This document shows, one piece after another, positions 53,598 through 61,719 of a stretch of 64,000 nt of DNA. Within the stretch, counting starts at the first letter, position 1; each line of letters begins with the position of its first letter. Both the position numbers and the translations under genes were made by a program. Source of the DNA: Zwartia panacis (lineage in GTDB: Bacteria; Pseudomonadota; Gammaproteobacteria; Burkholderiales; Burkholderiaceae_B); NCBI RefSeq assembly GCF_030410395.1, contig NZ_JAUHHF010000007.1, positions 1 through 64,000 on the forward strand. Reading direction: 5' to 3'. The notes under the pieces were generated by a model that was given only the letters and a program-made list of their open reading frames with translations, searched no databases and had not been told where the DNA came from.

Positions 53598-54263
53598 TCA
53601 GGATCGTCCAGTCATGCCTTGGAAGGTTGTATGAATCAACAATTCAACGATGTCCTCGTCAGAAAAGGCGCCGCCCATTTTCAAAAAGTCTGCGACTGGA
53701 TCGCAGGAGCGCGCGAAAATCGTATACAGAATGACCTCGCCAGGAAGTGAGGGGGAAAGTTCTCCATTCTGCTGCGCCTGACCAATCCATTCTCCGAGTG
53801 TTTCAGTCAGCTCACTGAGCTTGGCGATATAGGGCGGATTGTTGAGCAATGATTGCTGGATACTTGAGCGGGTAGACGGCAGCAAGGGCATTGTTCCGCT
53901 TAGGTGCAGTTTGATCGCCCATCTGACAAGCCCCTTGAGTTTATCGAGAGCTGTCATTTTGTGTGACATGCTTTCGGTCACACTGATTGCATCCGCAAGG
54001 AGGCGTGTCATTGACGCAGCCGCCAATGCCTCTTTTGACTCGAAATGTTTATAGAGGCTGGCTTTGGCAATACCGACATCGGCTGCGACTTCGTCCATTG
54101 TCATCAGGTCGAAGCCTTTTTGAGCCAGAAGTCTGTTGACCGCATCCAAGATAGCGTTTTCTCGGAACTTAAGCTGTTGTTGCTTGAACGTAAGCTTGTT
54201 GCTGCGGATAGTTTGTGGGCTAGCGGACATTGTCTGAAGTTGAATTTTATCTGAATGGTTCAT
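53598..54263 (-). CDS. TetR/AcrR family transcriptional regulator
   Basis: A 221-residue regulator. The N-terminal helix-turn-helix (about 40-85) reads AILDAVNRLLAQKGFDLMTMDEVAADVG, then IAKASLYKHFESKEAL, which is standard for TetR. The C-terminal ligand domain is specific to this protein. A second ATG eleven codons in is possible. It is divergent from the nine-gene lipid operon with only 82 bases between, so it very probably represses that operon and itself. The inducer may be a fatty acid or related lipid. Confidence 0.88.
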   Translation of the reverse strand: MNHSDKIQLQTMSASPQTIRSNKLTFKQQQLKFRENAILDAVNRLLAQKGFDLMTMDEVAADVGIAKASLYKHFESKEALAAASMTRLLADAISVTESMSHKMTALDKLKGLVRWAIKLHLSGTMPLLPSTRSSIQQSLLNNPPYIAKLSELTETLGEWIGQAQQNGELSPSLPGEVILYTIFARSCDPVADFLKMGGAFSDEDIVELLIHTTFQGMTGRS

Positions 54264-54278
54264 AATATTACTATTCAG
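54251..54278. promoter_or_regulatory. Candidate TetR operator overlapping the regulator's start
   Basis: CTGAAT (54251-54256) and ATTCAG (54273-54278) form an inverted repeat centred on the start of the TetR gene, with A/T-rich DNA between. The size fits a TetR-dimer site, but the arms are short. Confidence 0.3.
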
Positions 54279-54286
54279 TCTAAAAA

Positions 54287-54292
54287 TATACT
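54287..54292 (+). promoter_or_regulatory. Candidate -10 element of the lipid operon
   Basis: TATACT lies about 55 bases before the first gene of the operon and next to the candidate operator, so a bound repressor could cover the promoter. No good -35 hexamer is seen. Confidence 0.3.
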
Positions 54293-54345
54293 AATATGTT
54301 GAAAATTTCTCGTTTCGGTTACTTTTAATCCAGTTAAGTTCAATT

Positions 54346-54870
54346 ATGCCTCCATCCTTTAACACTGACGACAAAAAAAGCAACGCTTCCAGCTCTGCAA
54401 GCTATCCAGAGGCGTTCAGTCGTGTCTGTCAGGATACGTGGCGTTTATGCGGTGAGGGCGTCTTTAGCTGGAGTGTGTTTCGTTTTTATCGTGCAAGGTT
54501 GCTCACGCACACTGGAACATTCGATTCTGATAAACCCTTTCTTCTTGATTTGCATTACTTGAGGGCGCTGACGGGTCAGCAAATCGTGTCGACCTCAATG
54601 GATGAAATCGCACGGATTCATCCGCTCAACGAGGAGCAACGCAGGCGTTGGGCCGCGGCGCTTGAATCGATGATCCCCGACGTATGTTTGGGCGACAGAT
54701 TGCTAGGATGGTTTGTGCCCGGCAATCGCGTTGATTTTTTCTCATCGTCAGATGCTCTGGGTCAAATCAATGATCCTGAGTTTGTCAGAATGTTCAGTTC
54801 AATATGGCTCGATGAGAAAACACGGAGTCCACAACTACGCGAGGCGCTTTTGGGCGAGGTCCGGATATGA
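54346..54870 (+). CDS. Chalcone isomerase-like protein, cytoplasmic form
   Basis: A 174-residue protein with the bacterial chalcone-isomerase-like pattern: GVFSWSVFRFYRARLLT, FLLDLHYLRALTGQQIVSTSMDEIARI, LLGWFVPGNRVDFF and FSSIWLDEKTRSPQLREALLG. It has no signal peptide, unlike its paralogue four genes downstream. The plant CHI fold includes fatty-acid-binding members, and bacterial genes of this kind often sit beside CFA-synthase genes. It is the first gene of the operon, and its stop overlaps the next start (ATGA). Confidence 0.8.
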   Translation: MPPSFNTDDKKSNASSSASYPEAFSRVCQDTWRLCGEGVFSWSVFRFYRARLLTHTGTFDSDKPFLLDLHYLRALTGQQIVSTSMDEIARIHPLNEEQRRRWAAALESMIPDVCLGDRLLGWFVPGNRVDFFSSSDALGQINDPEFVRMFSSIWLDEKTRSPQLREALLGEVRI

Positions 54871-56162
54871 CGAGTCAGCACCTCATCCCTCGGCAAAGCA
54901 AAATCGCGGTCATCGGCTCTGGCATTGCCGGACTGTCCTGCGCATGGTTTCTTAGACAGCAATTTAATGTGACCTTATTCGAGGCAGGCGCTTATTTTGG
55001 CGGTCATTCCAATACGGTGGATGTCTCACTCGAAGGGCATACACATCCGGTCGATACTGGATTCCTCGTCCATAATGACCTGACTTATCCAAATCTCGTT
55101 CAGTTATTTTCGTATTTGAACATTCCTGTACATTCGAGCGACATGTCGTTTGGGGTTTCAATCAGCCAACCAGATATCGAATGGGCAGGTACAAATTTGA
55201 ATACGGTTTTCGCTCAGCGAACCAATGTACTCAAGCCCAAGTTTTTGGTGATGCTGCGGGAGATTCTTCGTTTTAATCGCCTGGCTTCGCAGTACCTCGA
55301 ACAAATGCGTGTGTCGCCACTTACGCTTGGCGAGCTTCTGGAGCGTGAACGCTTCGGAGAGGCAATGCGTGATTGGTATTTGCTCCCGATGGCTGCTGCG
55401 ATCTGGTCCTCTTCGGTCAAGGATATTCTTGGTTTCCCTGCCGCAACGTTTTTAACGTTTTGTCTGAACCACCGGTTATTGCAGATTGAGAACAGACCTC
55501 AGTGGAAAACAGTTCTGGGCGGTTCCCGGGAATACGTGAAAGCCATGGTTTCACAGATCAATGATGCACGGCTCAATTGTCCCGTGCATCGCGTGTTTCG
55601 CAAGCAAGAGCAGGTCGTGATTCACTCTGCTCAAGGCGTGGAGTATTTCGATGCAGTTATTTTCGCCTGCCACGCCCCGACAACCCTGGCCATGCTGGAT
55701 GTCGATGAACAAGAACAACGTGTGCTCCAAGGCTTTCGATATCAGCCTAACAAAGCGTTGCTTCATCTGGATGCGCGACTATTGCCGCGTCGCAAAAAAG
55801 TCTGGTCCGCCTGGAATTACATGTCATCACCTGGCTATGGGGCCGAGCGTCCCGTGGCCGTGAGTTACTTGCTCAATCAATTACAGCCTTTGCCCTTCAA
55901 GGCACCGGTGATCGTGACGCTGAATCCTCATACCGAACCTCATCAAGACCTGGTACTGCGCACCTTTGATTACGAGCATCCGGTGATGAATACGGACGCC
56001 GAGCTTGCACAGAAGTTATTGCCTTCTGTTCAAGGACGGAACCGAGCCTGGTTTTGCGGTGCCTGGACTGGTTATGGATTTCATGAGGATGGTCTCAAGT
56101 CCGCCCTGCGTATCGTGAGAGATTTCGGAGTGGACATTCCTTGGACACCTTTTTATGAATAG
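54867..56162 (+). CDS. FAD-dependent oxidoreductase (flavin amine oxidase type) of lipid cluster
   Basis: A 431-residue flavoprotein. The dinucleotide motif is VIGSGIAGLSCAWFL (residues 15-29), followed by FEAGAYFGGHSNTV and the C-terminal FAD contact CGAWTGYGFHEDGLKSAL. It belongs to the amine-oxidase/phytoene-desaturase-like group usually found beside DUF1365 and CFA-synthase-like genes. In Rhodobacter a protein of this kind is reported to desaturate methylated fatty acyl chains on the route to furan fatty acids; that role here is inference. It overlaps both neighbours, so translation is probably coupled. Confidence 0.85.
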   Translation: MTSQHLIPRQSKIAVIGSGIAGLSCAWFLRQQFNVTLFEAGAYFGGHSNTVDVSLEGHTHPVDTGFLVHNDLTYPNLVQLFSYLNIPVHSSDMSFGVSISQPDIEWAGTNLNTVFAQRTNVLKPKFLVMLREILRFNRLASQYLEQMRVSPLTLGELLERERFGEAMRDWYLLPMAAAIWSSSVKDILGFPAATFLTFCLNHRLLQIENRPQWKTVLGGSREYVKAMVSQINDARLNCPVHRVFRKQEQVVIHSAQGVEYFDAVIFACHAPTTLAMLDVDEQEQRVLQGFRYQPNKALLHLDARLLPRRKKVWSAWNYMSSPGYGAERPVAVSYLLNQLQPLPFKAPVIVTLNPHTEPHQDLVLRTFDYEHPVMNTDAELAQKLLPSVQGRNRAWFCGAWTGYGFHEDGLKSALRIVRDFGVDIPWTPFYE

Positions 56163-56958
56163 TCATCTTCTGGAGCTTTGTCGTGGCCGCGTGATGCATG
56201 CCCGTCTCAAGCCATTCGTCCACAGGTTTGTCTATCGGGTGTTTTGTATTCGTGTGCGTGTCGATCAGCTCTCCAATCTCAGTCGTTTTAACAGCTGGCT
56301 CTTTGGGGTTGATAAGAAGCGAATTGTCAGTTTTCAATCTCGTGATCATGGCGCAAGAGATGGCTCAGATCTGATTTCATGGTTAAACGATGCTTTGCAC
56401 GCGAGCGAGATTTCTTTGACATTGGGCGCTGTCTGGCTGCAGTGCTTCCCACGCGTGTTTGGCTATGTTTTTAACCCTGTGAGCTTTTGGTATGTGCATG
56501 ACCAGCAAGGAAATCTCCGTGTTTTAGTTGCCGAGGTCAACAACACATTCGGTCAGCGCCACCAGTATGTGCTGACAGCGCCGGGCATGGCTGTGATCGA
56601 AGAAAACTCTGTTCTCGAATGTCGCAAAATCTTTCATGTTTCCCCTTTTTGCGACGTTGAGGGCTTATATCGTTTTAAGAGCTCGCGACGCGGCGAACAA
56701 GAACGCATGGCCATTGATTACTTTGACGATCCAGCTTCACCCAAGCCACTGCTCAAAACCGCGATCGTTGTTCAGGCTCAAGTTTTTTCAACACGCGCGC
56801 TGTTGGCTTGCCTGATCTCTATGCCGATGATGACCCTCGGAGTGATGTGGCGAATTCATTGGCAAGCATTCAAGCTATGGCGACAGGGGGCTCAATATCA
56901 TCCTGTTCCGCCTCTGCCGGAAAACGAAGTCTCTAACAATGGAAAGGTTTCCTCATGA
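56155..56958 (+). CDS. DUF1365 domain-containing protein
   Basis: A 267-residue protein of the DUF1365 family. It begins LCRGRVMHARLKPFVHRFVYRVFC and contains the signature FGYVFNPVSFWYVHDQQGNLRVLVAEVNNTFG in two halves. It carries a late hydrophobic segment (ALLACLISMPMMTLGVMW) that may associate with the membrane. The biochemical role is unknown; the family is almost always next to an FAD oxidoreductase and a CFA-synthase-like methyltransferase, as here. It overlaps the upstream gene by 8 bases and the downstream gene by 4. Confidence 0.88.
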   Translation: MNSHLLELCRGRVMHARLKPFVHRFVYRVFCIRVRVDQLSNLSRFNSWLFGVDKKRIVSFQSRDHGARDGSDLISWLNDALHASEISLTLGAVWLQCFPRVFGYVFNPVSFWYVHDQQGNLRVLVAEVNNTFGQRHQYVLTAPGMAVIEENSVLECRKIFHVSPFCDVEGLYRFKSSRRGEQERMAIDYFDDPASPKPLLKTAIVVQAQVFSTRALLACLISMPMMTLGVMWRIHWQAFKLWRQGAQYHPVPPLPENEVSNNGKVSS

Positions 56959-58187
56959 GTTCGAACGAAGAGCGTCTCTCAGGTTCAATGGCTAATATTC
57001 CTTGGGCCGGGAGACTTCTTGTGAGTTTATTAGGACGTATTACTTATGGCTCCCTTAAGCTGATTAACCCCATGGGTATCGAGCTGATGCTGGGGCAAAA
57101 TGCGTCCGCACCGAGTGGTGAGGTCCCGCACGCTGAGTTGCGTATAAATGACTGGCGTGCGGCCGGGCTCATCTTGCGACAAGGTGATATCGGTTTTGCC
57201 GAGAGTTTACGAAGAGGTTGGGTTGACACACCAGATCTGGTTGCGCTGTTCACTTTAGCGATTCGTAACGAACAGATTTCCGAAGCCGTGGATGGTCACT
57301 GGTGGGCTTTGTTGCTCAAGCGTTTGTCACATTGGGTGCTCAAAGACAACAGCCGTGCGGGTAGTCGCCGTAATATTCTGAGTCATTACGATGTCGGCAA
57401 CAGTTTTTATCGATTGTGGCTTGATCCCTCGATGACGTATTCCGCTGGATTATTCGAGGGGGATCTGACGCGTGGGCTTGAGCAAGCTCAAGACGCCAAG
57501 TACGACCGTATTCTTGATCAGATTGATGCTTTGCCAGGGCAGACCATTCTCGAAGTGGGTTGTGGCTGGGGAGGGTTTGCCGAACGTGCCGCAAGACGCG
57601 GTTTAAATGTTGTCGGTATCACTTTGTCGGATGCGCAGCTTGAGTGGGCGACACAGCGAATGCGTCAGGCAGGCTTGAGTGATCGCGTGTCGCTCAGGCT
57701 GCAAGACTATCGCGATGTACCAGAAAAATTTGATCATATTGTTTCGATCGAAATGTTCGAGGCTGTCGGATTGTTGCATTGGCCAAGCTACTTTCAGATG
57801 CTTGCCCGTTGTCTCAAACCAGGCGGTCGCATCGTTGTCCAAACCATTGACATGACTGAAGATAAGTTCGATTCATATCGCAGGGGTACGGATTTTATTC
57901 AGCAATACATATTTCCCGGCGGCATGTTACCGAGCCCCTCGCGCTTCAGAAAAGAATGCGAAGCCGCCGGACTGCGGGCGCTGGAGGTTCTTTCTTTTGG
58001 TCAGGACTACGCGGAGACGCTCAAGCGCTGGGCACAACGCTTTGAAGCTTCATTGTCTCAAATTCGCGAACTTGGTTATGACGATGCATTCATCCGCATT
58101 TGGAAAATGTATCTTGCTTATTGTGAAGTTGGTTTCCGACAAACCCGAACGGATGTCAAACAATGGACACTATGCGCAAACTCTTGA
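56955..58187 (+). CDS. Cyclopropane-fatty-acyl-phospholipid synthase family methyltransferase
   Basis: A 410-residue protein. The N-terminal SCP-like domain (about 1-120) precedes the SAM domain with HYDVGNSFYRLWLDPSMTYS, ILEVGCGWGGFAE (residues 198-210), SIEMFEAVG and FIQQYIFPGGMLPS. The conserved cysteine near the C-terminus lies in AYCEVGFRQ. It acts on double bonds of membrane phospholipid acyl chains, adding a methylene or methyl carbon from SAM. The setting next to the FAD oxidoreductase suggests methylation on the way to branched or furan fatty acids rather than simple cyclopropane formation. Confidence 0.9.
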   Translation: MSSNEERLSGSMANIPWAGRLLVSLLGRITYGSLKLINPMGIELMLGQNASAPSGEVPHAELRINDWRAAGLILRQGDIGFAESLRRGWVDTPDLVALFTLAIRNEQISEAVDGHWWALLLKRLSHWVLKDNSRAGSRRNILSHYDVGNSFYRLWLDPSMTYSAGLFEGDLTRGLEQAQDAKYDRILDQIDALPGQTILEVGCGWGGFAERAARRGLNVVGITLSDAQLEWATQRMRQAGLSDRVSLRLQDYRDVPEKFDHIVSIEMFEAVGLLHWPSYFQMLARCLKPGGRIVVQTIDMTEDKFDSYRRGTDFIQQYIFPGGMLPSPSRFRKECEAAGLRALEVLSFGQDYAETLKRWAQRFEASLSQIRELGYDDAFIRIWKMYLAYCEVGFRQTRTDVKQWTLCANS

Positions 58188-58681
58188 TGGTGCTCTTGCT
58201 TGCCTTGGGACTGACCAGTCTTCAGGCGGCTCCAGTTTTTACACAGTTGTTACCGGGTGCTCAGCAAGTCGGTCAAGGTGTTTTTAAACGCTTTGGATGG
58301 TCGATCTACGAGGCTCGACTCTACGCATCAGGCGGACGCTTTGACGCTTCAAAGCCTTATGCCTTGTCACTGACGTATGAGCGAACGATTGCCGGCGATC
58401 GTTTGGTACAAGCTTCGCTTGACGAGATGCGTAAGCTTGGTGCGCCCGTTGATGAGCGCCCTGAGTGGGCGGCTGCTTTATCTCAAGTTCTGCCGAGTGT
58501 TTCCAAAGGTGTCACGCTCACGGGCGTCTATCGCCCCGGAGAGGGCGCTGTTTTTTATGAGCAAGACAAAGAAACAGGACGCATCGATGACGCGCTTGCC
58601 CGTATGTTTTTTGCCATTTGGCTCGATCCTCGCACGAGCGAGCCGAGCCTGCGACAGTCACTGCTTGGAATGAACCAGTGA
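58163..58681 (+). CDS. Chalcone isomerase-like protein, exported form
   Basis: A 172-residue protein with a signal peptide (MRKLLMVLLLALGLTSLQA after an alternative fourth-codon ATG at 58172). It has the same pattern as the cytoplasmic paralogue: FGWSIYEARLYAS, YALSLTYERTIAGDRLVQASLDEMRKL, GVYRPGEGAVFY and FFAIWLDPRTSEPSLRQSLLG. It probably binds lipid or a lipid product in the periplasm. It overlaps the CFA-type gene by 25 bases, or 16 if the inner ATG is used. No catalytic role can be assigned. Confidence 0.83.
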   Translation: MDTMRKLLMVLLLALGLTSLQAAPVFTQLLPGAQQVGQGVFKRFGWSIYEARLYASGGRFDASKPYALSLTYERTIAGDRLVQASLDEMRKLGAPVDERPEWAAALSQVLPSVSKGVTLTGVYRPGEGAVFYEQDKETGRIDDALARMFFAIWLDPRTSEPSLRQSLLGMNQ

Positions 58682-59955
58682 ACGTCCCGAGCCTCGTTGC
58701 TTATGCAGCGCTAGGTTTGCCTCTGGCGATGGCAATGCTGCCCATTTATATGATTTCGCCTAAATTTTATGGTGATGGACTTGGGATAGATTTGGCTGCT
58801 TTGGGGGCGGTTTTATTTTTGACACGAATTTTTGATACCGTCCAAGATCCTTTTTTAGGACGAGTCGTTGACGCCTTTCAGCGCAAACGCCACGGCTGGC
58901 TATCGCTCATGCTTGTCTCCGGTGTCATCCTTGCCCTGGGTTTTGTATTGTTGTTCACGCCACCAGAGTGGTCCAAATCGGGGTTGTTGGTATGGCTGAC
59001 TCTGAGTTTGTTACTGGTCTATTTTGCTCATAGCTTATTGAATATTTGTTATTTAACCTGGGGAGCCAGACTGAGTGATGACGTGGGGCAGCGTTCACGT
59101 GTGACAGCTTGGCGAGAGGCATTTGGTTTGATTGGGGTCGTGCTGGCCTCGGTTCTGCCTACTTTTTGGGTCGCGGACTGGGGGCCCAGGCAAGGCTATC
59201 AACTTTTTGCATGGGTGTTCGTAGGCGTTTTGTTTCTGGGTTTGGTGACGACTCTGCGTTGGGCGCCCAAACCCCAGATTTCAGTCGCCGGAACCCTCCA
59301 AGGTTGGCGCATGGCCCTCAAGCCATGGGCTGTCCAACGTGTGATGTGGTTTTATTTGTTCAATGCTATTTCTGTCGCAATTCCCGCTACGCTCGTACTC
59401 TTTTTTATTGACGACGTTGTTCGTGCACCTCAACAAGCGGGAATGTTTCTTGGCATATATTTTTTAGCAGGGATGTTGACCCTACCCGTTTGGGTCGCTT
59501 TGTCGGATCGAATTGGCAAGGCGCGTACCTGGACTCTGGGCAGTATTTTGGCCGCGCTATCCCTGCTTGGTTCTGGTTGGATCCAGGGTGGAGATGTGTT
59601 TGCCTACAGTGTGATTTGTTTGCTTGCAGGTACTGCTCTTGGCGCGGATGTTGCTCTGCCGCCCGCCATGCTCGCCGACGCGATTCCGGAAGAAAACCGT
59701 AAAAGCACGGGTTTGTATTTTGGGATATGGGTCTTGATCAGTAAGTTTGCCCTGGCATTGGCCGCAGGTTTGGCACTTCCGAGCCTCAAAATATTTGGCT
59801 ACACACCGGGTGATTTTCAGACAACAGGTGCGTTGACTGCCCTGTATGTGTTTTTACCAATCGTTTTCAAGGGCATCGCCATCCTGGTGCTGCTCCCACT
59901 GATAAGTGGAAGTTCGACATTGCGGGCATTACCCCGCGGGGAGTCTCACACATGA
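58678..59955 (+). CDS. MFS transporter (GPH/sugar-cation symporter type)
   Basis: A 425-residue polytopic protein with about 12 helices. It has the GPH-type first-loop sequence TRIFDTVQDPFLGRVVDAFQRK and the later DVALPPAMLADAIPEENRKSTGLYFG. The GTG start overlaps the upstream stop (GTGA). Transporters of this type recur in CFA/DUF1365 clusters, where the cargo is unknown; movement of a lipid or lipid precursor is a possibility but unproven. Confidence 0.85.
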   Translation: MNVPSLVAYAALGLPLAMAMLPIYMISPKFYGDGLGIDLAALGAVLFLTRIFDTVQDPFLGRVVDAFQRKRHGWLSLMLVSGVILALGFVLLFTPPEWSKSGLLVWLTLSLLLVYFAHSLLNICYLTWGARLSDDVGQRSRVTAWREAFGLIGVVLASVLPTFWVADWGPRQGYQLFAWVFVGVLFLGLVTTLRWAPKPQISVAGTLQGWRMALKPWAVQRVMWFYLFNAISVAIPATLVLFFIDDVVRAPQQAGMFLGIYFLAGMLTLPVWVALSDRIGKARTWTLGSILAALSLLGSGWIQGGDVFAYSVICLLAGTALGADVALPPAMLADAIPEENRKSTGLYFGIWVLISKFALALAAGLALPSLKIFGYTPGDFQTTGALTALYVFLPIVFKGIAILVLLPLISGSSTLRALPRGESHT

Positions 59956-60500
59956 AATTCAAAGCACTGATAGCCTCTGCAACAGCTGCATTGATGACGG
60001 CTTGCGGCAGCGTGGATGTCGATCAATACGCCAAAGAAACCCCGAAACTTGAACTGTCCAGTTTTTTCACTGGAACGATTGATGCCTGGGGAATTTTTCA
60101 AAAACGCAACGGCGAAGTTGCGCGTCGTTTTCACGTCGAGATCTTGACCAATTGGACCAGTCCTTCAGAAGGCACCCTCGATGAGCGTTTCACCTACGCC
60201 GATGGCGAGAAGCAGCGGCGTGTCTGGACACTCAAGCGTCAAGCAGACGGGACTTGGCAGGGAACGGCAGATGATGTCGTCGGGGTCGCGACTGGACGTG
60301 TCTCTGGCAATGCACTCCATTGGACGTATGTCCTTCGATTGCCTGTTGATGGCAAAGAGTATCTGGTTAATTTTGATGACTGGATGTGGCAGATGGACGA
60401 GAGCTCAATGATGAATCGTTCAACCATGTCTAAATTCGGCATCGATTTAGGCGAAGTCACATTGTTTTTCCGCAAACGCATGCCTGGCAGTCCTTCATGA
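59952..60500 (+). CDS. DUF3833 family lipoprotein
   Basis: A 182-residue lipoprotein with the signal MKFKALIASATAALMTAC, where Cys18 is in a lipobox (LMTAC). The mature part shows DUF3833 features: AWGIFQKRNGEVARRFHV, ERFTYADGEKQRRVWTLKR, LVNFDDWMWQMD and TLFFRKR. It is probably anchored in the periplasmic face of a membrane with a lipocalin-like beta fold. The function is unknown. Its ATG overlaps the transporter stop (ATGA) and its stop overlaps the SDR start. Confidence 0.87.
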   Translation: MKFKALIASATAALMTACGSVDVDQYAKETPKLELSSFFTGTIDAWGIFQKRNGEVARRFHVEILTNWTSPSEGTLDERFTYADGEKQRRVWTLKRQADGTWQGTADDVVGVATGRVSGNALHWTYVLRLPVDGKEYLVNFDDWMWQMDESSMMNRSTMSKFGIDLGEVTLFFRKRMPGSPS

Positions 60501-61276
60501 TCGGTCCGTTGAATCCACCCGTGACGAACTGGCATGGTAAGCGCGTTTGGTTGATTGGTGCTTCAAGCGGTATCGGTGCAGCTTTGGCTCAAACGCTTCT
60601 TGAAGCGGGTGCATGGGTGACTGTGTCAGCGCGGCGCCAAGAGACCTTGCAACATGTTGCTCAGCCGTATGCCCATGCACATGTCGTCGCTTTTGATGCC
60701 GCGGATCTTAATGCCTGGCCTGAGGCGTTTGAGCGCACCTTGGCTGCGATGGGGCATGTCGATCTGGTTGTGTTTGGCGCGGCTCGATATGATCCCACGC
60801 ATAGTTGGGAGTTGAATCTGGATCAGGTGCAAAAAAGTTTTGATTTGAATGTCGTCGCTATTTACAAAGGTGTTTCCCTATTGGTTCCGTATTTTCTCAA
60901 ACGAGGCGAGGGTGGTCTCGCGGTGATTGCCAGTATTTCAGCCTACACCGGACTGCCTAAAGCTGTGATTTACGGGGCGACTAAAGCGGCCTTGAACAAT
61001 ATGGCGCAAACTCTGTATTTTGAACTTGAACCAAAAGGACTGTCGGTATATTTGATCAACCCTGGGTTTGTCGAAACACCGATGACGGCTGTGAACGACT
61101 TTGCAATGCCTGGATTGATGAAACCTTTTGATGCCGCCAAAGCAATCGTGGCGGGTTTTGAGCGCGGTGATTTCGAGGTTCGCTTTCCCCGCGGGTTTGC
61201 TGGCTCTTTGCGTTGGATTAGTTTTTTGGCGGATCGATTCCGTTTTCCGCTGTTACATAAAATCACTAAGCTCTAA
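60497..61276 (+). CDS. Short-chain dehydrogenase/reductase (SDR) of lipid cluster
   Basis: A 259-residue SDR with the NAD(P) motif LIGASSGIGAALAQ, the Ser in IASISAYTG and the catalytic pair in YGATKAAL. The length and the C-terminal hydrophobic stretch fit classical SDRs acting on fatty acyl or ketone substrates. Its position in the CFA/DUF1365 operon matches the SDR that accompanies the Rhodobacter gene set. The substrate is unknown. Confidence 0.87.
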   Translation: MIGPLNPPVTNWHGKRVWLIGASSGIGAALAQTLLEAGAWVTVSARRQETLQHVAQPYAHAHVVAFDAADLNAWPEAFERTLAAMGHVDLVVFGAARYDPTHSWELNLDQVQKSFDLNVVAIYKGVSLLVPYFLKRGEGGLAVIASISAYTGLPKAVIYGATKAALNNMAQTLYFELEPKGLSVYLINPGFVETPMTAVNDFAMPGLMKPFDAAKAIVAGFERGDFEVRFPRGFAGSLRWISFLADRFRFPLLHKITKL

Positions 61277-61281
61277 GGGAG

Positions 61282-61719
61282 ATGATCTTGCACGCTCGCT
61301 TCATTGAAATTGCGCAATGGTTTGAGTCCCTGACTACCGATTCCCTGGCAAGTGTGTCTGACATTTATGCTGCAGATGCAGTATTTATTGATCCTTTTAA
61401 CAATCTTAGCGGCCTTCAAGCCGTCCGTGCTGTTTACCAGCACATGTTTGACACCTTGGTGCATCCTCGCTTTGTCGTCACAAATATTGTGTCCGATGAG
61501 CGGCAGGGTTTTATGAATTGGGATTTCCTGTTTGAGTGCAGAAATCAAGCCCAAAAAATTTCAGGTTGCACGCAATTTGAATTAAACGAACAGGGGCGGA
61601 TTGTTTTGCATCGTGATTATTGGGATGCCGCTCAACAAGTCTATGAAAAGATTCCATTGCTTGGTGCGATCTTGAGAGCCCTGAGACGCAAGCTTTCGCT
61701 GCCTTTGCAAAATAAGTAA
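61282..61719 (+). CDS. NTF2-like (SnoaL type) small protein
   Basis: A 145-residue protein with the cone-shaped NTF2-like pattern: an N-terminal helix (IEIAQWFESLT), VSDIYAADAVFIDPFNN, QHMFDTLVHPRF, and a C-terminal sheet with RIVLHRDYWDA. Such proteins bind or isomerise small hydrophobic molecules. The ATG called here lies directly after AAGGGAG; the TTG two codons later (61288) is better spaced from that ribosome-binding site and may be the true start. It is the last gene of the nine-gene operon. Confidence 0.8.
   Translation: MILHARFIEIAQWFESLTTDSLASVSDIYAADAVFIDPFNNLSGLQAVRAVYQHMFDTLVHPRFVVTNIVSDERQGFMNWDFLFECRNQAQKISGCTQFELNEQGRIVLHRDYWDAAQQVYEKIPLLGAILRALRRKLSLPLQNK

Follow-up and report, generated by a model that had tools for sequence, protein, structure and literature searches.

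In Rhodobacter sphaeroides, the S-adenosylmethionine (SAM)-dependent methylase UfaM, UfaD (RSP1091) and the DUF1365 protein UfaO (RSP1090) were reported to convert the cis-vaccenate chains of phospholipids to a methylated furan fatty acid, and RSP1087, RSP1088 and RSP1089 of the same operon are described as dispensable for this synthesis (Lemke et al. 2020, PMC7380195). The Rhodopseudomonas palustris genes RPA2571-2570-2569, arranged in the order ufaD-ufaO-ufaM, are sufficient for the production of 9M5-FuFA (PMC7380195), and UfaM of Halomonas sp. YLGW01 gave rise to a methyl-octadecenoate peak in E. coli (PMC12089945). Published regulators of such genes are ChrR in Rhodobacter and P. syringae (PMC5507510) and LitR in Pseudomonas (PMC9758184). 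No report of TetR control of a ufa operon was among the matches listed in the open-access literature, subscription papers lying outside this search. Here, we describe a nine-gene operon of Zwartia panacis with a divergent TetR gene, located on contig NZ_JAUHHF010000007.1 (positions 1 to 64,000; this whole stretch of 64,000 nucleotides is referred to as the window). It is likely a furan fatty acid (ufa) operon of the form common in Burkholderiales that is under local TetR control. The operon itself is a known one; its novelty lies in the TetR-linked regulatory variant with a predicted operator and in the lineage-specific protein CHI1. Conservation of the operon, a residue signature of its methyltransferase, an exchange of regulators between loci and a palindrome were found by computation, and these suggest its chemistry and regulation.

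The nine open reading frames (ORFs) span positions 54346-61719 and are spaced by -4, -8, -4, -25, -4, -4, -4 and +5 bases, with overlaps at seven of the eight junctions. The original prediction, made from the sequence, had described a nine-gene overlapping operon; ORF list and Pfam confirm its order, span and overlaps, and the Pfam families over the nine genes support the names it had given them. A collection of genome contigs contained 19 loci with relatives of the window methyltransferase. In ten of the 16 nearest relatives (L001-L016), among them L015 from Zwartia hollandica, the TetR gene and all nine genes are found in identical order, and the other six are interrupted by contig ends; given these close relatives with the same order, the line-up is not due to chance. 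Altogether, 158 stretches, two of them from the window's own genome, were fetched and read with profiles from window orthologues.

The second to fourth genes encode a UfaD-like flavin adenine dinucleotide (FAD) oxidoreductase (54867..56162, plus strand; Amino_oxidase, NAD_binding_8; 39-45% to four operon copies from outside the order), which is the predicted desaturase of the methylated acyl chain, a UfaO-like DUF1365 protein (56155..56958, plus strand; DUF1365 E 1.7e-73; alignment of 13 sequences), which is the predicted O2-inserting, furan-forming enzyme, and a UfaM-like SAM-dependent acyl methyltransferase (56955..58187, plus strand; CMAS E 1.4e-86). UfaD-, UfaO- and UfaM-type genes hence stand together in the window, and their order is the one proven in R. 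palustris; Halomonas sp. YLGW01 is also described as having these three genes consecutively (PMC7380195; PMC12089945). The resemblance to the Rhodobacter furan fatty acid genes, which had been pointed out before, reflects true homology and, in the case of UfaD-UfaO-UfaM, extends to the gene order. R. sphaeroides ufaM and RSP1091-1087 share with the window the UfaD, UfaO and UfaM homologues and downstream lipoprotein- and SDR-type genes (PMC7380195); the window differs in having ufaM inside the operon, two chalcone isomerase (CHI)-like genes and an NTF2-like gene, and a TetR instead of RpoE/ChrR. A locus with a Rhodobacter-like layout and an extracytoplasmic function (ECF) sigma factor/ChrR pair (L127, UfaD-UfaO-GPH-DUF3833-SDR) matches the window gene by gene at 33-43%. 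DUF1365 was found in 197 of 399 genomes of the order and in 47 of 151 genomes of the family, and all 60 sampled Burkholderiales DUF1365 loci, which were chosen by hand at about one per genus while avoiding contig edges, contain UfaD, UfaO and UfaM.

In E. coli Cfa, the bicarbonate base is held by Glu239, His266 and Tyr317 (PMC11387697). With E. coli Cfa (L027) as the reference, alignment of 105 operon methyltransferases, the window protein included, revealed Gln at the position of His266 and Glu at 236 in all 105, Ala at the position of His240 in 104, and retention of Glu239 and Tyr317. The window protein, which also has Ala at 139, lacks one of the three Cfa ligands and shares Q266, E236 and A240 with the operon copies, and is therefore of UfaM rather than Cfa type by a signature that is defined from operon context and not from a sequence of proven activity. 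A second CMAS protein of the same genome, encoded on contig C33, is probably a true Cfa, because it keeps Cys139, Gly236, His240 and His266. The ufaD-ufaO-ufaM order, the loss of His266 throughout the operon copies and the presence of a separate, probably true Cfa together suggest that the operon serves furan fatty acid synthesis. Context and homologues indicate that the operon UfaM would transfer a methyl group without ring closure; however, cyclic fatty acids were reported alongside the methylated one in E. coli overexpressing Halomonas UfaM (PMC12089945), which speaks against a sharp split between UfaM and Cfa.

If the window enzymes act like their proven homologues, UfaM would methylate a cis-unsaturated phospholipid chain, UfaD would desaturate the product to a methylated conjugated diene, and UfaO would insert an O2-derived oxygen, thereby closing the furan ring. 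The structure model of UfaO (predicted local distance difference test, pLDDT, 85.1) is beta-rich; a Foldseek search against the PDB gave no match at E 0.001 or better, and a sequence search of the PDB with the UfaO profile gave none. An assignment of the cofactor from the fold was discarded, since the best Foldseek matches, nitrobindin-type haem barrels, had an E of 0.015, which is too weak for use. Across 13 sequences, H15, H115 and H235 of UfaO are invariant and H23, H136 and H161 nearly so; these histidines could be metal or haem ligands.

The regulator slot was surveyed up to 2.5 kb upstream of ufaD in 132 labelled loci (L021, L030-L059, L200-L209 except two completing a genome, L223-L225, L002, L007, L014 and L019 were omitted as duplicate, cut or odd). 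A TetR of the window family was present in 35 loci, a MerR protein with a B12-binding domain (MerR-B12) in 33, ECF/ChrR in 17 and none of these in 47; TetR and MerR-B12 never occurred together (0/132). The sampling was not random: the window and relatives fetched with its methyltransferase make up 14 of the 35 TetR loci, and three more belong to the same clade. The other 18 lie outside this clade, and the TetR slot is thus not unique to the window genome. Representative upstream genes were assigned by Pfam to ECF sigma factors, ChrR, MerR with B12-binding domain (LitR/CarH type), FolE2, glutathione peroxidase, photolyase, lipocalin and fatty acid desaturase. In the order sample, 37 loci have the long operon; of these, 18 carry MerR-B12, 13 TetR and six neither. 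In a tree of the joined UfaD, UfaO and UfaM proteins (FastTree, Shimodaira-Hasegawa (SH)-like support; 131 of the 132 loci), the window falls into a clade of 36 loci (support 99), of which 31 have TetR, five no regulator that was seen and none MerR-B12; at least four interchanges between TetR and MerR-B12 are required over 68 rows of this tree. The ufa regulator of Burkholderiales is mostly a LitR/CarH-type MerR-B12 or a window-type TetR, and many related operons elsewhere lie beside RpoE/ChrR.

Six same-genus genomes with DUF1365 include five with TetR and CHI1 and one, G837, with MerR-B12 and no CHI1; in the same-genus genome G782 (L222), CHI2 was not called. The MerR-B12-linked ufa operon of G837 (L210, L227) groups with MerR-B12 operons, which probably reflects a replacement of the whole ufa module. 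In the window's family, L214 and L217 carry a photolyase gene after the TetR gene and in the same direction, and TetR may there stand in a photo-stress setting. The window genome has two adjacent photolyase-like matches (L230, L231; G000:C11:302169-304413), one with in-frame stops.

The original prediction had seen no sigma factor/ChrR pair, and this holds genome-wide: no ChrR above the cut-off was found in the whole window genome, which yielded two weak cupin-type matches (best 36.8 vs 124.5 bits), and TGATC or CGTA, the motif described for the RpoE/ChrR regulon (PMC5507510, PMC4336711), is not present in 54264-54345, so that neither an encoded ChrR with its partner nor the promoter motif marks the operon as part of such a regulon. 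Likewise, neither the operon flank nor the whole genome encodes a LitR-grade MerR-B12 protein (best match 35% over 77 residues), which leaves a LitR/CarH light regulon without its regulator in this genome. Control from a distance, by a ChrR or LitR gene at another place in the genome, was also considered and dismissed, as none was found at family level. With no ChrR above the cut-off and no LitR-grade protein, only TetR remains of the three regulator kinds. A TetR switch appears, in this lineage, to stand in for the customary one that responds to light or oxygen stress. In Pseudomonas, the light-inducible phrB/SDR/FAD/ufaM cluster has the same core enzymes and an SDR and its regulator is encoded in the region, but this regulator is the MerR-type LitR, and photolyase and fol genes are described in the LitR regulon (PMC9758184).

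The TetR family regulator (53598..54263, minus strand; Pfam TetR_N E 5.6e-15) is divergent from the operon, as had been noted, and is found at the same place in uncut close relatives. Between the start codons of TetR and CHI1 lies a palindrome with the core ACT-N4-AGT (54266..54282, no strand), which is the predicted TetR operator on the basis of its conservation across loci; TACTAATATGTT at 54289-54300 is a second, imperfect candidate site. Within 220 bases upstream, ACT-N4-AGT was found at 26 of 35 TetR loci (1.4 expected from shuffles), but elsewhere at one of 33 MerR-B12 loci (0.6 expected), none of 17 ChrR loci (0.4) and one of 47 others (0.9), counts which include related, non-independent sequences. 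It ranks first among 704 short palindromes for TetR loci and occurs in 16 of 18 TetR loci outside the window clade and in 10 of 17 inside. MerR-B12 loci favour GTC-N3-GAC (15/33), tied with GCG-N3-CGC, the preference for which may reflect base composition. Both Cupriavidus plasmid TetR loci contain ACT-N4-AGT; a MerR plasmid locus and an ECF-linked one do not. Where TetR loci have no CHI1, the gene facing away from tetR is ufaD, with the palindrome in front of it in 16 of 18. A conserved palindrome thus lies in the shared intergenic region of 26 of the 35 TetR loci, as expected of a TetR with a cognate operator to which binding is predicted. The divergent TetR would bind ACT-N4-AGT and most likely repress both genes until it is released by a ligand. 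The conserved palindrome now lends support to the different, still putative, trigger that the original prediction proposed. A wider regulon was rejected, because a genome scan with the window 17-mer gave one other site, with three mismatches and in a stretch that we read as containing phage-like genes, and a reversed control gave three matches, which indicates chance. A sigma-70 scan gave two sites vs 7.5 in shuffles and was uninformative.

Several observations weigh against this interpretation. The motif was first read off 15 TetR intergenic stretches, 11 of which contain it, and then counted, although it also holds for 15 of the 20 loci that had not been viewed and, of the 13 such loci outside the clade, for 12. 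The exact core is not found in the searched 220 bases of nine of the 35 TetR loci, including L001, L003-L005, L011, L015 and L181, where the close relatives L001, L003-L005, L011 and L015 have near matches only, and the match in L226 is at a different position. TetR homologues (E 1e-15 or better; 68 of 399 order-sample genomes) are also often found apart from ufa genes: of 37 matches of at least 45% (45-58%; window excluded; placed by eye), four lie beside ufaO, 29 elsewhere, two in genomes without DUF1365 and two are unplaced, while at least 22 of 34 matches below 45% lie beside ufaO. Eight of 12 distant orphan TetRs that were read have ACT-N4-AGT inside the gene or within 350 bases of it, a count made without a shuffle control and for which about three to four are estimated by chance; their neighbours are varied. 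It could therefore be argued that furan fatty acids are made but that TetR regulates nothing beyond its own gene or little more, with transcription of the ufa genes starting from an internal or constitutive promoter or depending on a distant regulator. A TetR-CHI pair that stands alone in genome G495, and the 47 of 132 ufa loci without a recognised regulator within 2.5 kb, would fit this explanation. However, CHI1 and ufaD are most likely on one transcript because they overlap by four bases, and where CHI1 is missing, it is ufaD that is divergent from TetR and preceded by the palindrome, so that we consider control of TetR alone rather unlikely.

With respect to the chemistry, the reading for this organism is drawn from homologues and sequence, and the R. 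sphaeroides, R. palustris and Halomonas proteins were compared through their published descriptions. Furthermore, of the three core enzymes UfaO shows the lowest conservation, with an identity of only 26-35% to the four copies from outside the order with which it was compared, and two UfaO proteins are reported as tested (PMC7380195). Both points would suit a pathway in which the UfaO-like protein catalyses another reaction and the end product is a methyl-branched unsaturated chain or an oxidised lipid other than a furan. Against it stand the presence of UfaD and UfaM with DUF1365 in all sampled Burkholderiales loci and the same three consecutive genes in Halomonas and R. palustris, and such an outcome seems improbable. 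An ordinary cyclopropane fatty acid operon, to which the CMAS family match of the methyltransferase and the cyclic fatty acids seen with Halomonas UfaM in E. coli might point, is disfavoured by the methyltransferase residues: Gln replaces His266 in every operon copy, and a separate Cfa with catalytic residues is encoded in the same genome. We regard this last explanation as hardly credible, and a furan fatty acid operon under TetR control remains the likely reading.

Downstream of the core genes, CHI2 (58163..58681, plus strand; Chalcone_3 E 3.4e-07; signal-like N-terminus by eye) is followed by a GPH/MFS_2 transporter (58678..59955, plus strand; MFS_2 E 1.2e-70), for which a GTG start is presumed and a longer TTG frame begins at 58618, a DUF3833 protein with a lipobox-like N-terminus by eye (59952..60500, plus strand; E 7e-69), an SDR oxidoreductase (60497..61276, plus strand; adh_short E 1.2e-38) and, as the last gene, an NTF2/SnoaL_2-like protein (61282..61719, plus strand; SnoaL_2 E 2.7e-15). 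The GPH subfamily was assigned by NCBIfam with a score below the model cut-off, and no NCBIfam model at cut-off was among the matches listed for the ten genes, TetR included. These five products would be accessory and perhaps handle or move the modified lipid. All eight of UfaD, UfaO, UfaM, CHI2, GPH, DUF3833, SDR and NTF2 are found in 31 of the 60 sampled Burkholderiales loci, CHI2 in 35 and the NTF2-like gene in 38; DUF3833 occurs in 113 of 398 genomes of the phylum. Many genomes that share the GTDB class but not the order have NTF2-SDR-UfaD-UfaO-UfaM with CHI and DUF3833 nearby, the class names (alpha, gamma) of some genomes being deduced from kinship and gene order. Because the full eight-gene set is present in about half of the sampled loci, the exported CHI2 and the NTF2-like gene are not special but ordinary members of a common Burkholderiales operon form. 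The variant pathway with added lipid-binding proteins suggested in the original prediction consequently survives only in part, as CHI2 and NTF2 are common and have relatives outside the order, and CHI1 alone is lineage-specific. The literature search listed no paper that pairs DUF3833 with DUF1365, and none that pairs chalcone isomerase with furan fatty acid in bacteria.

Two plasmids carry the eight genes from UfaD to NTF2 in this order: p2 of Cupriavidus pinatubonensis HN-2 (L235), where the divergent regulator is a TetR of the window family (42% to the window's), and pAZKH of Azoarcus sp. KH32C (L237), where it is a MerR. Unlike the window, both plasmid operons are without CHI1. On a plasmid of Cupriavidus sp. 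USMAHM13 (L234), TetR-ufaD-ufaO is followed by rearranged CHI, lipocalin, DUF2878, two CMAS, DUF1295 and photolyase genes. In a second Burkholderiales ufa cluster (L140-L143, L147-L149, L151, L153, L158), a CMAS paralogue precedes UfaD-UfaO-UfaM, and DUF1295, lipocalin and fatty acid desaturase genes also do so in several loci. The 15 aligned paralogues of this kind, which also occur in L019, L145, L152, L171 and L189, keep His240 and His266 and have Phe for Ile268 in 15/15.

CHI1 (54346..54870, plus strand; Chalcone_3 E 3.6e-07), the leaderless product of the first gene, is restricted to the window's clade as a member of the ufa operon. Both Chalcone_3 matches are above the Pfam cut-off, and the CHI fold is indicated for CHI2 by its structure model and for CHI1 by Chalcone_3 and sequence alignment only. 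The CHI2 model (pLDDT 88.5) matched CHI, CHIL, AtFAP1 and AtFAP3 in Foldseek (E 2.8e-07 to 3.2e-05); a sequence search of the PDB with the CHI profile gave no match. AtFAP1 and AtFAP3 are fatty-acid-binding CHI-fold proteins, and both fatty acid binding (FAP) and haem binding (yeast Aim18p) are described for this fold (PMC9996372). Lipid binding by the window CHI proteins is possible, judging from the model, with haem binding as an alternative.

The genome G495 contains an orphan TetR (L238), 58% to the window's, which is divergent from a leaderless CHI gene. This TetR forms the sister branch to the window-type TetRs (support 92), and the CHI gene falls into the CHI1 clade (support 98). A profile search for CHI1 in 399 genomes scored the window copy at 285 bits and that of G495 at 214, with no other genome above 157, although the value for G495 is partly due to construction, as the profile included the window and G495 copies. 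A simple duplication of CHI2 is not favoured as the origin of CHI1, since CHI1 groups with the stand-alone CHI of L238. CHI1 probably belongs with TetR, and the pair was probably grafted onto the operon; a point against this is that the stand-alone pair is known from one genome only. In the window clade, TetR probably brought along a leaderless CHI gene of its own, and this gene took up the first position in the operon. A plasmid search matched 54 records, and its four best TetR hits, all from Cupriavidus, are about 1.5 kb away from ufaO. As the TetR tree requires at least three changes between ufa-linked and orphan copies, this TetR subfamily, whose members may share one kind of site, seems to have been recruited to the operon repeatedly or lost from it repeatedly.

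It is tempting to speculate, though we hold this only tentatively, that TetR and CHI1 form one sensing unit, a pre-existing stand-alone module grafted onto the operon, in which an acyl, oxidised-lipid or haem ligand is bound by CHI1 within the cell and handed over to TetR. If this were true, furan-lipid synthesis would follow the state of the membrane lipids and not light or singlet oxygen. Apart from this speculation, the survey shows the ufa operons as a single enzyme set whose three switches can be exchanged, and a DNA site is proposed here for the third of them, TetR. Culturable hosts such as Cupriavidus or Zwartia thereby allow tests of both the trigger and what the accessory genes do.

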